Shown here piece after piece: positions 5,161-51,138 of a DNA stretch of 64,000 nucleotides; position 1 is the stretch's first letter, and each line of letters opens with the position of its first letter. The notes beneath the pieces were generated by a model. The model was not told the origin of the DNA. It saw nothing but the letters and a program-made list of their open reading frames with translations, and did no database searches. Source of the stretch: Bacteroidia bacterium (GTDB lineage: Bacteria; Bacteroidota; Bacteroidia; UKL13-3). The position numbers and the translations under genes were made by a program. Location of the stretch: positions 81,028 through 145,027 of the forward strand of contig JAIBAK010000001.1 in the NCBI GenBank assembly GCA_019695215.1. The letters are read 5' to 3'.

Positions 5161-5203
5161 AAATAGAAAAAGCCCAGACCGCAGGCCTGGGCTTTTTCTA
5201 TTT
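5161..5203. terminator. Bidirectional intrinsic terminator
   Basis: A perfect 17-bp inverted repeat (arms 5161-5177 and 5187-5203, 9-nt loop) has a GC-rich centre (GCCCAG/CTGGGC) and A/T-rich outer arms, so a run of U follows the stem on either strand. It lies between the plus-strand metalloprotease and the minus-strand tRNA-Ser and can end transcription of both. Confidence 0.9.
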
Positions 5204-41241: not shown

Positions 41242-44200
41242 CTACTTTTGATGGTTTTTAATTTCGGCTTTGGTTATCTCCTCCTCAAACTCCATAGTAT
41301 CAAGGTATGCAACTGCGTTATGCCATAACTTATGCTCATTAGGCTTAATTACATAAAAGGAGTTTTTCGTAAAGCCTCGCACATCCTGCTGTATATATAG
41401 GTTTTTACAAACATTGTAAACACCAAGGTCACCCAACAACATTTCTAAATCATCATTTCCTGTTTTCCTAAAGGTATTGGTAGGTTGTTTTTTATCTTTA
41501 TTTTCTACGTGAAAATTAATCCGTATAAAAAAATCTGTATATAAAATTTCAGGCCGTAACCTTTTATTTATTCTATCAAACCTTACTTGAAACGATTTGA
41601 GAAACACCCCAAGATATTCGTTCATGTAATCGACATCTTTTTGCTTCTCAAAATTCAGGGGCTTAAAAACTCTTGCTTCCTTTTCTCTCAATAAAACTGG
41701 TATAGAAACAGTAGTTGCATAATCAAGTAAGGATAATTCCATTTGAGTTAATCCATACAATTGATTTATCTTTTTCTCAATTGCCTTTTTCGATTGAGCA
41801 ACAACATTACCGCCAAATCCGTCCATCTTATTAGTTATATTTAAAGCAAGTTCCGCAAGTTTATTATCGTATTTTATCGGGAAGTTAAAGAATTCATCAA
41901 AGTGAATGCGGCTTTTCTCTATTCCTAATGACGAGCCAGTGTTTAATGTATAATATGTGAAAAGTTTAGAATTGAATAGCGAAGATAAAGAACTCAAAAA
42001 TTCTTTAACATTGTCAGCATCTTTTGATATAGGAATTAAAGAGGCAACCGTAGAACTGAAGCTTATTTTTCCTTCATGAAATGCGGTTACAGCTCCAAAA
42101 TGATGCTCGGTCTCGGTAGGAGTAAGCACAACGCCCTTTTTAAAAAGAAGTTTATTGCCTTTGAAGAATTTTAAATCCGGCAAATACCCAACATTATTAT
42201 GTTTGATTTGCTTTAATTCAGCTTCTCGTTTCCACTTTTTGTTTGGGAATACAACAAATGGCCTAAATTCACTTTCTGCTTCTAAATAATCATAATTAAG
42301 AATTTTTGACGTATCATTTTTTTTGCTGCCATCTTTAATCTTCAATCCACCTTTCCAATCATACTTTTGAAGTTCAACATTATTTTCTTTATGCTTTAGC
42401 TCCTTCAATCTACGTATGAAATGAATATCAAGCGCATTTCCATGAACCAACACTTTCCATAGCCAATCAAAGCCACCTTTTCCTTCAATAAAATAACTCT
42501 GTTTAATGTTCTTGACATCGTGCTTTTCAATTACAATAGTTTTATAATAGCGAAAAAAACGATTTGGCTTTACTGTTATGTGTTGGATAACATTTTCAGT
42601 AGTAGTCTTATTCCCCGTTTCGGGTATGTATGTAATAACGGCAGCAGGATATCTAGCATTATCAAAAATATGGTTGCCACCCCTTATCTTATTGTTTACA
42701 GGTGACAGCTCAACTACCTGTTTAACGTGAAATTTATTTAAAAAGTAGTTTCTGAATATCTTTGAGGTGTCTTCTGAATTATATAAAACTTTACTTGACA
42801 CTACGAAAGAACACTTAAGCGCTTTTTCTTGTGAAGCAAAATCGCTGGTGCGAACTAAAAACGCCTGGCATATTTCTTTGTCGCCAATATTAAGTATTAA
42901 CCTTTCGTCTTTAAGCTTCTCTTTGTTTTCTTTCTCGTTACGGTCCTTTATGTATTTTATATACTTGGATTTAGGGACTTTCCCCCAAGGCGGATTCCCG
43001 ACTATGAAATCTAATCCACGTATCTGCGTGTTGAATGGGTGATTTGTATTAAAAAAATCAGCCTCAATTCCCCCGAAGAAATTTTCGTCTTTTAATTTAT
43101 GAAAGCGAAATTTTTCAATTTCGGCTGGTTGTTTGTAATCAAGAATAGTAACGTAAAGCGAAAAAATAGATATATCAATTGCATCAGGATCAATATCAAT
43201 TCCATAAATATTCGATTTGATAAGTTGCCATAAACGCGCATCAGATATCTTTTTTCGTCCTGTAAGAGCAAGTTCCTTTTCAAGGATTTTACGCAATGTT
43301 TCTACAAGGAAAATTCCCGATCCACACGAAGGATCGAGGACTTTACACATAGAATCTTTTTTAAGAGGATCTTCTAAAAATGGGCTTACGGTTTGGGACA
43401 AAACATAGTCAACCAAATATGCAGGGGTATAGTAGGCTTTGATATCTTTTTGTTTGGAAAGCTGAAGCTTTTCGTTTTCATATTCATTGCCAATAAAGTT
43501 TTCATAAATACTACTAATCAGCTCTACCGGTATGATCTCAAAATCATATAAATCAAAAAAAGATTTTTGTACAGTATATCCCTTATAATCTCGGCCTGTC
43601 TTAAAAAATTCGGAACAGTTGAACAAATGGTACAAAACTTCCAAATGCTCATCGTTAACTAATTCCTCTTCCTTATAAACTACTTTTTGACCACTTGATT
43701 CCTTAAGTGGAAACATATCGCCATTATACTTTTCATTTAAATACTTGAAAAATTTATATAAGGAGGTTTTAGTTTTTATTAACTCTCTGAACGAATCTTT
43801 TCTTGCACCCTTATTAGTTCCTATAATATAATTTTGGTCGCTAAAGGTTACATCTCTGTCAATTAAGTAACGTACAAAAAGCAATCGTCCAATGAGCCTG
43901 TTTGCGGCTTTAGGCAATAAATTCAACCCATTTTTAGCAACCAATATCCTACGTGCATCGGTAATATTATTCAGCAGGTAAGTATCTATAAGGTTTTTCT
44001 TCGTTCCTAACTTTTCAAGTGAGTGACCCAAAAGCATATTTACAAACGAGAAATCTTCAAATCCATCAACATTATTGCTTTGCTGCAATTTTCGTAATCG
44101 TTTAAAATCCGCTAATGTAAACTCGTTTCCATGATAAAGATCAAGCGTGCTCCTTCTATTAATAAAAACAGCTTGGGCTAACCCAAAGTTAATTACATGT

Positions 44201-44460
44201 TTATGTAAAACTTCCTCTTCATCTTGAGACGGATTATCAAAGAATAGAATAAAAGACTGATTGAATGGCTTAGGATGTGATTTTTCTACTTCAGCATCGT
44301 TATATAAACAGTAAAAAGCTTGCGGTTTAATAACATCCTTTAAGATGCGGCTGATACGGTAAGGGAATTTATGAACCCATGAATCAGCCTCACTTATTAG
44401 GTATAAGCCATTTTCTTTATTAATACCTAATTTTTTGTATAGCTGTTCAAGCCTATTCAT
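41242..44460 (-). CDS. N6-adenine DNA methyltransferase (Eco57I class), restriction-modification
   Basis: 1072 aa from ATG 44460 (a GTG 36 nt upstream is the alternative). Gamma-class MTase motifs: motif I DPSCGSGIF (376-384) for S-adenosylmethionine, and motif IV NPPW (489-492). The N-terminal 300 residues carry a helical region (FVNMLLGHSLEKL), and the C-terminal part about 700-1072 should be the target-recognition and accessory region. No PD-(D/E)xK is apparent in its own N-terminus, so cutting is probably done by the 245-aa product downstream. Resembles type IIG/BREX PglX-like enzymes in architecture. Minus strand, opposite to icmF. Confidence 0.88.
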   Translation of the reverse strand: MNRLEQLYKKLGINKENGLYLISEADSWVHKFPYRISRILKDVIKPQAFYCLYNDAEVEKSHPKPFNQSFILFFDNPSQDEEEVLHKHVINFGLAQAVFINRRSTLDLYHGNEFTLADFKRLRKLQQSNNVDGFEDFSFVNMLLGHSLEKLGTKKNLIDTYLLNNITDARRILVAKNGLNLLPKAANRLIGRLLFVRYLIDRDVTFSDQNYIIGTNKGARKDSFRELIKTKTSLYKFFKYLNEKYNGDMFPLKESSGQKVVYKEEELVNDEHLEVLYHLFNCSEFFKTGRDYKGYTVQKSFFDLYDFEIIPVELISSIYENFIGNEYENEKLQLSKQKDIKAYYTPAYLVDYVLSQTVSPFLEDPLKKDSMCKVLDPSCGSGIFLVETLRKILEKELALTGRKKISDARLWQLIKSNIYGIDIDPDAIDISIFSLYVTILDYKQPAEIEKFRFHKLKDENFFGGIEADFFNTNHPFNTQIRGLDFIVGNPPWGKVPKSKYIKYIKDRNEKENKEKLKDERLILNIGDKEICQAFLVRTSDFASQEKALKCSFVVSSKVLYNSEDTSKIFRNYFLNKFHVKQVVELSPVNNKIRGGNHIFDNARYPAAVITYIPETGNKTTTENVIQHITVKPNRFFRYYKTIVIEKHDVKNIKQSYFIEGKGGFDWLWKVLVHGNALDIHFIRRLKELKHKENNVELQKYDWKGGLKIKDGSKKNDTSKILNYDYLEAESEFRPFVVFPNKKWKREAELKQIKHNNVGYLPDLKFFKGNKLLFKKGVVLTPTETEHHFGAVTAFHEGKISFSSTVASLIPISKDADNVKEFLSSLSSLFNSKLFTYYTLNTGSSLGIEKSRIHFDEFFNFPIKYDNKLAELALNITNKMDGFGGNVVAQSKKAIEKKINQLYGLTQMELSLLDYATTVSIPVLLREKEARVFKPLNFEKQKDVDYMNEYLGVFLKSFQVRFDRINKRLRPEILYTDFFIRINFHVENKDKKQPTNTFRKTGNDDLEMLLGDLGVYNVCKNLYIQQDVRGFTKNSFYVIKPNEHKLWHNAVAYLDTMEFEEEITKAEIKNHQK

Positions 44461-44630
44461 TGCGTACTTTGTTATTTGGAGTAATTGAAGATTCACGCAA
44501 AACCTTGCAACAAATTAAGTAATTTATATAGAAATTTTAAGCATGGATGGAAGTACAAAGTGTTTGTTAATAGTTAACAAGTTGAAATGTTTATAACTTA
44601 AGGTATGGATGTAAGTTCGACCCCCTCGCT

Positions 44631-45026: not shown

Positions 45027-45473
45027 ATGATGTACATATCCATTTGCGTTACGCTGCTCACCATGATTGCAGCCATGCACCTGTTAGCAAAAACCAATAA
45101 AGAAGCCCTTGGCTCTCTTTTTAAGTGGGTTTCTTATGCAGTACTTATTGTGGCTTCGCTGTTGTTGCTTTGCCAGGTAACACGCGGGATTGCTAAAATG
45201 TGCTGCCATAAGGAATGCAAAGAAAAAAGTCATTGTGAAATGGGGAAAATGGGTGGCCACAGAGGAATGATGATGATGGAAAAAGAATGCCGCATGCATG
45301 GTGATGATGGATGTTGCGAAATGGGAAAAATGCATAAAGGAATGGGTAAGGAAGATTGCCGCCATATGGAATGTGAAGAGGGAATGGAAAAATGTGGTGG
45401 CAAGATGAAAACGGGCATGGGCCATCAGGAAATGGAACCCGATAGTGCCGCTGGTCACCATATGGGCAAATGA
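45027..45473 (+). CDS. Two-helix membrane protein with Met/His/Cys-rich tail
   Basis: 148 aa, unrecognised. Two membrane helices (about 2-20 and 34-53) are followed by a 94-residue hydrophilic tail (55-148) that contains 10 Cys, 17 Met and 9 His, in groups such as MCCHKECKEKSHCEMGK and MMMMEKECRMHGDDGCCE. Such composition is typical of copper- or zinc-binding tails of metal-handling proteins; this is inference, and the side of the membrane on which the tail lies is not known. It ends 12 nt before a palindrome (45486). The tail is low in complexity, so homology search will be noisy. Confidence 0.7.
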   Translation: MMYISICVTLLTMIAAMHLLAKTNKEALGSLFKWVSYAVLIVASLLLLCQVTRGIAKMCCHKECKEKSHCEMGKMGGHRGMMMMEKECRMHGDDGCCEMGKMHKGMGKEDCRHMECEEGMEKCGGKMKTGMGHQEMEPDSAAGHHMGK

Positions 45474-48413: not shown

Positions 48414-48716
48414 TCAATTCTTCGGTTCGTTTTCGGGGCTAATGTATTGTTTAAGTGTCTGAATATATTCTTCAAATGCTTTAATGCCGGTGGGTGTAAT
48501 GCGGCAGGTAGTGAGCGGATAATTGTTTTTAAATGTTTTCTCCAGTTCAATGTACCCCGCTTCTTTTAATTTGTTCAGTTGCACACTCAGGTTTCCGGCT
48601 GTGGCCGATGTTTTTTCCTTCAGGAAAGTAAAATCGGCCTCCTTCACACCAATAAGTAATGATATGATGGCCAACCGGAGCTGAGAGTGTAATATAGGAT
48701 TGAGTTCTTTAAACAC
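48414..48716 (-). CDS. Winged-helix transcriptional regulator
   Basis: 100 aa, single wHTH domain: LHSQLRLAIISLLIG, then TFLKEKTSATAGNLSVQLNKLKEAGYIE (helix-turn-helix with the recognition helix) and the wing FKNNYPLTTCRITPTG. Resembles the HTH_34/ArsR-like regulators that usually accompany a membrane protein. Its 5' end overlaps the membrane-protein gene by 8 nt, so it is last in a three-gene operon whose upstream region has a 33-bp palindrome (50255-50287). Autoregulation is the natural hypothesis. Confidence 0.88.
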   Translation of the reverse strand: MFKELNPILHSQLRLAIISLLIGVKEADFTFLKEKTSATAGNLSVQLNKLKEAGYIELEKTFKNNYPLTTCRITPTGIKAFEEYIQTLKQYISPENEPKN

Positions 48717-49302
48717 TTTTGTTGTATTTAGCTTTTAACAAATGTCCGGGAATTATATATCCGCCAAGCACCCCAACCGCTATCGACAACAAATGCAATT
48801 GATGTGTCGATGAAAAATAAGTAGCACCCGCCAGTAAAAAGTTTAAAATGCCGCCATACATTAATGGTTTAAATTGAAGCATTCCTCCGGATACATAAAG
48901 CCAAATGCCGTAAATAATCATAATGCTTGGATAAAATGCCTGCCATTGTCCGGATGCGGGCATGCAAAAACATACCGTAAACATGGCAATGCAAAATGCC
49001 TGAATAACGAATTTAAGATTTTCATTCACGTAGGATTTTACTTTTACCGGTTGTATTTTTTTTTCGCGCACACTCACAATCATGGTTACAATGCCTCCTA
49101 ATGGCATTAATACTAACCATGGCAGTGAATGATAAGTGAAATCGGTAAATTCAAGCAGGAACCAATTGGTTAAAGCAGCCACAAAAACCAGATAGCCCCA
49201 GAAAAGAAAGAAGAAACTTTTGTCCTGTATATCTTCTTTTGCTTTGCCAATCATTTGCTCAATAAGCTGCAGGGCATTTTTTTCGTTAAATTCTTTTTCC
49301 AT
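48709..49302 (-). CDS. Hypothetical membrane protein (197 aa)
   Basis: A cytoplasmic N-terminal helix rich in Glu/Lys (about 1-28) precedes six predicted membrane spans (about 30-50, 60-80, 100-118, 122-140, 145-165, 170-190), ending in a short basic tail. No named family is recognised; genes of this type are commonly found next to a small winged-helix regulator in Bacteroidota. It overlaps that regulator (8 nt) and follows the T9SS-protein gene by 11 nt, so all three share a transcript. Confidence 0.8.
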   Translation of the reverse strand: MEKEFNEKNALQLIEQMIGKAKEDIQDKSFFFLFWGYLVFVAALTNWFLLEFTDFTYHSLPWLVLMPLGGIVTMIVSVREKKIQPVKVKSYVNENLKFVIQAFCIAMFTVCFCMPASGQWQAFYPSIMIIYGIWLYVSGGMLQFKPLMYGGILNFLLAGATYFSSTHQLHLLSIAVGVLGGYIIPGHLLKAKYNKSV

Positions 49303-49313
49303 TGCAGGTAGTA

Positions 49314-50225
49314 TTAATACGTAATAATCAGGTTAGAGTTAAGAACAGTTATTCCATGCTCGTTTGTAAGTGTCATCTGGTAAACACCTTTCTTCAGTTT
49401 GTTTACTAAAATGGGTGTACCCGAAACAACATACGGGAGGGTGAACACTTCCTTTCCGTTCACGTCAAAGATATGAAGATCTGCCTGGTTTAGCTTGTGT
49501 GTAATAGTAATTGATTCATGGGTTGGATTGGGATAGAAATTTATCTCACTTGCCTGGGGATTATTATGTACGAAGGTGCTTGGGTTATATACCAATAAAA
49601 GGTCGTCAACAAACAGCCTGGAACCAACAGCGGGTGTATAGGCATCGGTACTGGTTGAAAACAGAAATGACATGGAATCCGGAATTTCGTTGCTGTAATA
49701 AATGAAAGGAGCAGAAGTTTGGGTGTAGGTAGTAATTTCCTGTTTGTTTTGCCAGTACAATTCAGCTACTGTATCCCGCTGCATTGTGGTTGAATTCCAT
49801 TTGGTAAGTACAACGGAGCATAGTACCGAATCATTTGGGGCCGGAGTTGATTTAAACCAGAAATGCAAAGCCGAAGGACGACCGTTAAATGGAATAAAGT
49901 TGTGGTCAAAATCGGGTTGGTTATCGGCCCCCAGCATATTCCCCGAGGTAAGAATCCCCGGAATATCGGAAAAGGGGCCGGCCTTTGTTTCAAGAAGGAT
50001 AGCGTAATTTCCTGAATGTGCATCGGTGGTTTTTACGCAGGTTGACGGATAGCCGAATTGTTTTAACGGACTTAAGGTGAACCACGAAACGGGCTCTTCG
50101 TGATAGGACAAAGCGCGTTTGTTCCAGCCTTCAAAACCCGGGTTCATTGGTTGAGGGTTGTTTTGTGCGGCAACTCTACCTTGTAAAGCCACCAGCATTA
50201 AAATGGGGTAAATGATGTGTTTCAT
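49314..50225 (-). CDS. T9SS-secreted protein, PCMD-like
   Basis: 303 aa. A signal peptide (cut after VAA, before QNN) is followed by a beta-rich domain beginning MNPGFEGWNK and ending GSRLFVDDLLLVY. The opening and closing patterns recall the putative carbohydrate-metabolism domain; the assignment is tentative. Residues about 225-303 are a type A T9SS sorting domain, with FYPNPT, IFDVNGKEV and KGVYQMTL. After export it is likely attached to the cell surface or released. First gene of the wHTH operon. Confidence 0.82.
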   Translation of the reverse strand: MKHIIYPILMLVALQGRVAAQNNPQPMNPGFEGWNKRALSYHEEPVSWFTLSPLKQFGYPSTCVKTTDAHSGNYAILLETKAGPFSDIPGILTSGNMLGADNQPDFDHNFIPFNGRPSALHFWFKSTPAPNDSVLCSVVLTKWNSTTMQRDTVAELYWQNKQEITTYTQTSAPFIYYSNEIPDSMSFLFSTSTDAYTPAVGSRLFVDDLLLVYNPSTFVHNNPQASEINFYPNPTHESITITHKLNQADLHIFDVNGKEVFTLPYVVSGTPILVNKLKKGVYQMTLTNEHGITVLNSNLIITY

Positions 50226-50245
50226 GTATTAAATATTTTATGGCA

Positions 50246-50253
50246 CAAAGGTA
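50246..50253 (-). promoter_or_regulatory. -7 promoter box of the T9SS-protein operon
   Basis: Minus strand TACCTTTG, perfect TAnnTTTG, 20 nt before the ATG at 50225. The -33 region lies inside the palindrome at 50255-50287. Confidence 0.6.
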
Positions 50254-50254
50254 T

Positions 50255-50287
50255 TATAAAGTAGTTTATAAAATAAACTAATTTATA
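50255..50287. promoter_or_regulatory. 33-bp palindrome, candidate operator
   Basis: The arms are TATAAA, one unmatched base, TAGTTTAT; a 3-nt centre; then ATAAACTA, one unmatched base, TTTATA. 14 of 15 positions pair on each side. The half-sites face the -33 region of the promoter, so a dimeric repressor would block polymerase. The winged-helix protein encoded at the end of the operon is the obvious candidate. Confidence 0.55.
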
Positions 50288-50400
50288 CATGATTCAAATC
50301 AAATATTTGAAAATCAATGAATAAAAAATTAATTTGATGTAAAAATCAATTTTTTAGAACGGGTTTCGTGTCTTAGTATTGCATTTTTAAAAACCAAAGT

Positions 50401-51138
50401 ATGAAGCAAATTGAACCCTGGATGGGGCGCACCCGTTTGTTACTGGCCGATGAACAATTGGAGAAATTAATTAACTCTAATGTATTGGTAGTAGGATTGG
50501 GAGGAGTAGGCGGTATAGCGGCCGAAATGATTGCCCGCAGCGGGGTTGGTAAAATGACCATTGTTGATGCTGACACCGTTGATACCACAAACCGAAACAG
50601 GCAAATTCCGGCATTGTACAGCACCGTAGGAAAAGTAAAAGCTGATGTACTGGCGGGCCGACTATTGGATATTAATCCGGATTTGGAGCTCACCGTATTG
50701 CCCGAGTATTTTAAAGATAAACGCACCAATGAGGTTTTAGATGAGGGGAAATTTGATTATGCCCTTGATTGTATTGATACACTTTCGCCCAAAGTATTTT
50801 TTATAAAAGCTTGTATTGAAAAAGGAATTCCAATTGTAAGCTCAATGGGAGCGGGTTCAAAAGTTGATCCCACGCGGGTTCGTGTAGCCGATCTTTCAGA
50901 AACGCATACATGCAATCTGGCCCGGTACGTTCGTAAATACCTGCACAAACTTGGAATACATTCGGGTGTGAAGGCTGTTTTTTCGGATGAAGAACGAATG
51001 TCAACCGCTCAGGTGGTAATTGCTGACGGAAGAAATAAAAAGTCGGTGGTTGGAACCATCAGTTATATGCCTGCGGTGTTTGGCTGTACGGTAGCTTCGG
51101 TTGCCATAAGGGATTTATACGACCGGAAAACTATTTAA
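50401..51138 (+). CDS. tcdA: tRNA threonylcarbamoyladenosine dehydratase
   Basis: ThiF/E1-like enzyme that cyclises t6A37 to ct6A in ANN-decoding tRNAs, with ATP. 245 aa. The nucleotide-binding VVGLGGVGGIAAEMIARSGVG and NRNRQIPAL match TcdA/YgdL; FDYALDCIDTLSPKV and SSMGAGSKVDPTRVRVADLS are further landmarks. Its 3' end overlaps the convergent 174-aa gene by 8 nt. Confidence 0.95.
   Translation: MKQIEPWMGRTRLLLADEQLEKLINSNVLVVGLGGVGGIAAEMIARSGVGKMTIVDADTVDTTNRNRQIPALYSTVGKVKADVLAGRLLDINPDLELTVLPEYFKDKRTNEVLDEGKFDYALDCIDTLSPKVFFIKACIEKGIPIVSSMGAGSKVDPTRVRVADLSETHTCNLARYVRKYLHKLGIHSGVKAVFSDEERMSTAQVVIADGRNKKSVVGTISYMPAVFGCTVASVAIRDLYDRKTI

Follow-up and report, generated by a model that had tools for sequence, protein, structure and literature searches.

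The window analysed here, a stretch of 64,000 nucleotides of Bacteroidia DNA, holds a palindrome in front of three genes, the last of which encodes a small winged-helix protein. The question that this arrangement raises is whether the protein acts on the palindrome and, if it does, what the pair does for the other genes. We consider it probable that the protein, which belongs to the HTH_34 family, binds the palindrome as its operator and autoregulates, probably by repression, an operon of envelope genes. The features of the window are collected in Table 1.

Table 1. Features of the window (position 1 is its first letter; strand. where the feature has no direction)
Feature	Position	Strand	Remarks
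Exported 303-aa protein gene	49314-50225	-	First in the operon
Membrane 197-aa protein gene	48709-49302	-	Second; 11 bp gap after the first gene
Winged-helix 100-aa regulator gene	48414-48716	-	Last; 8 nt overlap with the membrane-protein gene
Palindromic operator, 33 bp, TATAAAGTAGTTTATAAAATAAACTAATTTATA	50255-50287	.	Arms of 15 nt, 14/15 (93%) complementary, 3-nt centre
Operator core GTTTATTTTATAAACTACTTTA	50257-50278	-	Three alternating half-sites; matches the phylum-wide pattern GTTTATNNTATAAACNNNTTTA exactly
-7 promoter element TACCTTTG	50246-50253	-	Perfect TAnnTTTG; one base from the palindrome
ThiF/E1-like protein gene	50401-51138	+	PF00899, 1.6e-39; divergent from the operon; surroundings retained in the congener G001 despite operon loss
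148-aa protein gene	45027-45473	+	Met/His/Cys/acidic-rich, metal-binding in appearance; overlapped by a long antisense ORF
1084-aa protein gene	41242-44496	-	Adenine-methylase motifs DPSCGSGIFL and NPPWG; probably a restriction-modification or defence methylase

A sequence-only reading of this DNA had described a palindrome paired at 14 of 15 positions next to a perfect -7 box, and both features held up under a recount, under shuffling and in a reading of the minus strand. The palindrome lies on the promoter side of the first gene, in an intergenic region of 175 bp that is 80% AT. Of 2000 dinucleotide shuffles of this region, 2 produced a dyad with at least 14 of 15 pairs and a gap of 0–7; the window as a whole has just one further dyad of this quality, at 5164, where the sequence forms a GC-rich hairpin resembling a terminator. 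The 33 bp may alternatively be read as two 16-bp TATAAAnnnnTTTATA dyads in tandem, 17 bp apart, which were detected as a direct repeat. The Bacteroidetes promoter consensus for the -33 and -7 elements is TTTG/TAnnTTTG (PMC6847099). At a spacing of 20 the -33 element of the window is TTTA (50274-50277, within the palindrome), an imperfect match with three of the four bases of TTTG.

The same reading had placed a 100-aa winged-helix gene at the end of the operon, overlapping the membrane-protein gene, and this is indeed what the locus contains. The regulator matches PF13601 (HTH_34) over positions 1-80 of 80 with 103.2 bits against a gathering cut-off of 27 (8.5e-30); its nearest solved chain is 1ub9. 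An identity as an ArsR/SmtB metalloregulator (NF033788) was rejected, the score being 23.9 bits against a curated cut-off of 55. The 197-aa membrane protein has six predicted helices (model pLDDT 81.6) and belongs to no family in Pfam or NCBIfam; it has no sequence match in the PDB, and a Foldseek search with its model gave no fold at E<=0.001, so that neither sequence nor fold assigns it to a known type of transporter or sensor. The 303-aa protein begins with what looks by eye like a signal peptide, followed by a PCMD-like jelly-roll domain at about residues 56-211 and a T9SS type A C-terminal sorting domain at 231-294. The sorting domain scores 37.2 bits against 23 (TIGR04183) and 39.7 against 27 (PF18962), is present in all 16 orthologues, and matches the T9SS sorting domain in 8glk with 0.83 in the structural model. 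The PCMD score (PF13201) is 27.6 bits, just under the cut-off of 28 (E 3e-6), and 13 of the 16 orthologues match this family at a threshold of 0.001. The model (pLDDT 85) matches the PCMD structures 3hbz and 3s30, as well as family 16 carbohydrate-binding modules (CBM16) with TM up to 0.70 by target length. Because of these fold matches and the family matches of the orthologues, carbohydrate binding by this T9SS cargo can reasonably be predicted.

Absence of the palindrome upstream of orthologous operons had been proposed as the observation that would speak against a functional operator; the orthologous operons do carry it. The gene order T9SS protein, membrane protein, HTH_34, with the palindrome in front, recurs in more than 12 genomes of the window's family, and nearly all of these operons have AGTTTATNNNATAAACT directly upstream of their first gene, with TAnnTTTG usually following it. 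In the order, 64 genomes were compared: 16 of the 25 that have the operon contain an exact operator core, and none of the 39 without the operon does (Fisher 4e-9). Cores are imperfect in G033 (two mismatches) and G026 (three), and no clear core was seen in G028 and at locus L021. Genome G008 (L027, L135) is missing the membrane-protein gene and keeps the T9SS gene, HTH_34 and the operator. In the congener G001 the operator and the T9SS gene are gone together with the greater part of the membrane-protein gene, window positions 48807-50372 being absent from an otherwise syntenic stretch; there (L180 3650-4290) HTH_34 is recognisable as DNA with a decayed open frame, next to a 33-aa remnant of the membrane protein. 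The 3.3-Mb genome of the window has one PF13601 gene, that of the 100-aa regulator, and the core pattern GTTTATNNTATAAACNNNTTTA, even with one mismatch allowed, occurs in it at a single place, that listed in Table 1. A second, more distant HTH_34 group is also present in the window's family (E ~1e-16 to 1e-20; G016:C76, G073:C35, G031:C56 and others).

The pairing extends over the phylum. A profile of the membrane protein matches 40 of 395 Bacteroidota genomes, and in nearly every locus examined an HTH_34 gene follows the membrane-protein gene, the two overlapping or abutting in nearly all operons. Thirteen of the 15 exact cores in this sample of 395 genomes lie at such loci; counted by genome, 10 of the 40 with the membrane protein have an exact core as against 1 of the 355 without it (Fisher 4e-10). 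One of the two exceptions (L169 4813-4834) belongs to genome G206, which has its HTH_34 operon elsewhere; the site is 46 bp upstream of a lone DUF2306 gene, which is likely a regulon member controlled in trans. In other families, genes for DUF2306 membrane proteins are found repeatedly within the operon or next to it (L081, L082, L124). Off-pattern sites with no HTH_34 nearby, such as G145:C122, G418:C53 and G192:C15, are comparable in number with the counts of a reversed-pattern control and were treated as background.

The cargo of the operon changes from family to family. In family f26 the first gene of the operon codes for a protein like a TonB-dependent receptor (about 740-780 aa, with carboxypeptidase-regulatory-like and plug domains); a gene for an exported protein of about 215 aa comes next, then those for one or two membrane proteins and for HTH_34. 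No more than about 60 bp separate the operator from the receptor start. Family f14 has two copies of the operator, one before the membrane-protein gene and the other before the gene that follows HTH_34 and encodes an alpha/beta hydrolase, a DUF1579-like protein or a TPR protein. This second site (L129-L134) directly precedes the start codon, and no -7 box is obvious between the two. Some operons of f32 and f33 open with a DUF2141 gene and a gene for a barrel protein of the outer membrane; these operons have a pair of operators, spaced by about 80 bp. Operator-like sites paired 79-81 bp apart were noted before the operon at L172, L173, L174 and L175, suggesting looping or two promoters. At L218 the membrane-protein gene is gone and the receptor, judged by eye, is seemingly a remnant, leaving intact the operator and HTH_34 only. 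The link to a surface-exported T9SS protein, which the sequence-only reading had taken as a mark of the unit, is thus particular to the window's family and gives way elsewhere to operons with TonB-dependent receptors. The operator is retained where the membrane-protein gene is absent (L027/L135, L218), and therefore it tracks HTH_34.

Forty operators located before first genes give the consensus TTTGGTTTATANTATAAACTASTTTATRTTTG, in which half-sites alternate in direction: GTTTATA forward, TATAAAC reverse and (A/C/G)TTTAT forward. What is conserved across homologues is these three promoter-proximal half-sites; the outer fourth is weak in most families because the -33 box uses its place. The full 33-bp symmetry of the window is accordingly weakened as a candidate functional unit, its outer left half-site being poorly conserved and replaced in many families by the -33 TTTG. 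A perfect -7 box is present in 31 of the 40 operons, and in 14 a perfect TTTG-N18-22-TAnnTTTG promoter surrounds the operator, the spacer being exactly 20 in 13 of these 14. The -7 box of the window lies five bases further away. Distant families have AAAG in the half-site in place of AAAC. In the recognition-helix region of HTH_34, the residue in front of a conserved GN tends to vary with this change: Asp accompanies AAAG, while Lys, Ala or Ser mostly go with AAAC; within one clade, two proteins with Lys (L168, L181) accompany AAAC. This correlation between residue and half-site is confounded by phylogeny and is suggestive only, and because the f45 proteins break the rule, having Ala or Ser with AAAG, we regard it as a lead.

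Part of the order and phylum data had guided the choice of the pattern, and therefore the operator was sought at fresh loci. HTH_34 genes were located in further f26 genomes, which gave 20 previously unseen loci, and at all 20 a core matching the pattern at 15 or more of its 17 positions stood directly before the first gene of the operon, be it a TonB-dependent receptor gene, a membrane-protein gene or, after loss of the rest, HTH_34 itself. The reversed pattern scored 14 at best, and of 60 simulated loci one scored 15; at L204 a chance match inside a gene scores as well as the true site. The proposal that the palindrome is an operator belonging to the regulator encoded beside it thus gains strong support from comparison, since the pair travels together across the phylum, these fresh loci included. 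Because of this co-conservation, a functional link between HTH_34 and the operator is very likely.

The most economical reading of these patterns is repression. HTH_34 would be a one-component transcription factor controlling the single promoter of its own operon, and because the operator has three to four alternating (G)TTTATA half-sites, the palindrome would probably be bound by two dimers or by a dimer and a half-site. With the operator placed between the -33 and -7 elements, negative autoregulation would be the simplest outcome, the bound protein keeping RNA polymerase away. A signal, perhaps a ligand or a protein partner, would then release HTH_34, and the T9SS cargo, the six-helix membrane protein and the regulator would be expressed together. 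A role in the cell envelope is suggested because nearly all recurring cargo genes encode exported or membrane proteins.

Other explanations of the same locus differ in what they make of the palindrome and of its partner. The palindrome could in principle have nothing to do with HTH_34 and be an RNA element, a terminator or an AT-rich dyad that arose by chance, and weak dyads are indeed common at 80% AT, several weaker ones being present in the intergenic region itself. Yet it lies upstream of the -7 box and therefore outside the operon's transcript, and it lacks a G+C stem, on which grounds we rejected the terminator or RNA hairpin. Chance was likewise rejected, given the rarity of such a dyad among the shuffles, the base-by-base conservation between genomes and the co-occurrence with HTH_34 across the phylum, so that this whole group of explanations is extremely improbable. 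It is also improbable, if less so, that an unlinked regulator binds the operator and that HTH_34 is merely one of the operon members under its control: operator and HTH_34 stay paired while all other genes of the operon change, and the operator is kept both at L218, where HTH_34 is the only intact gene, and at the loci without the membrane-protein gene.

Repression is harder to separate from activation, since sites located in the promoter spacer can also serve activators of the MerR type. HTH_34 might bind the operator in that role, or act as a switch that can both repress and activate, and the operator does fill the -33/-7 spacer in many homologues, which is where spacer-binding activators act. 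The complete promoters, however, are canonical, with the 20-nt spacing that prevails among them, so that promoter remodelling seems unneeded, and several half-sites reach the -7 box; we hold activation to be rather unlikely. Slightly better placed, though still unlikely, is a three-gene sensing circuit in which the membrane protein is the sensor and sequesters HTH_34 at the membrane or releases it. The close association of the two genes throughout the phylum speaks for such a partnership. Against it, L135 and L218 keep HTH_34 and the operator without the membrane-protein gene, f26 has the membrane protein in one or two copies, and a soluble interaction domain is not evident in the model. Since the operons without this gene keep operator and regulator, the membrane protein is dispensable for the link between them, and it may be a cargo, a transporter or a sensor. 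The idea of a self-contained sensing or response unit, put forward in the sequence-only reading, survives in its first half, as the window's genome has one operator and one PF13601 gene; the sensing or response part gains no support, and the membrane-protein gene is missing from some operons that keep the other two elements. A wider proposal can be made tentatively: HTH_34 and the six-helix protein may form an undescribed, phylum-wide envelope-response module, in which one operator grammar in the sigma-ABfr promoter spacer is kept, varied surface machines (TonB-dependent receptors, T9SS carbohydrate-binding-like proteins, DUF2141/DUF2306 proteins) are plugged in, and the membrane protein conveys the signal. 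We regard this as possible but doubtful.

Small winged-helix repressors that control their own operon and share it with a membrane protein are familiar from one-component systems of the ArsR, MarR and PadR types. The window system shares with them a small DNA-binding protein encoded in its own operon, a palindrome over the promoter and a membrane partner; it differs in the protein family, in the three to four alternating half-sites in a sigma-ABfr spacer and in the varying surface cargo. It has two of the features expected of an autoregulated one-component repressor, namely a regulator encoded in an operon with a palindrome over its promoter and an operator that is kept together with the regulator gene from genome to genome. 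As a PF13601 protein the regulator resembles its solved relative 1ub9 (PH1061), with a full-length match, about 100 aa and a single domain, and is set apart by the conserved operator and operon that we infer for it. The model of its cargo matches the fold of the PCMD proteins BT2081 and BVU_0247 (3hbz, 3s30; PMC2954218) and the cargo differs from them by its T9SS sorting domain and by a score just below the Pfam cut-off; as a T9SS type A cargo (TIGR04183/PF18962) it is an ordinary member. In the open-licence literature searched, we found neither a characterised target or operator of a PF13601 HTH_34 protein nor a description of the window's regulator or operator. The mechanism thus seems to be that of an autoregulated one-component system of a known kind, while the operator, the regulon and their breadth seem, within that literature, to be new for the HTH_34 group.

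From this point of view, the comparison would provide a precise operator and a regulon across a phylum for a regulator family without a characterised target in the literature searched. It would tie the HTH_34 family to genes of nutrient receptors and surface proteins, and the arrangement TTTG-GTTTATANTATAAACTASTT-TAnnTTTG may offer a compact promoter-operator part for use in Bacteroidota.
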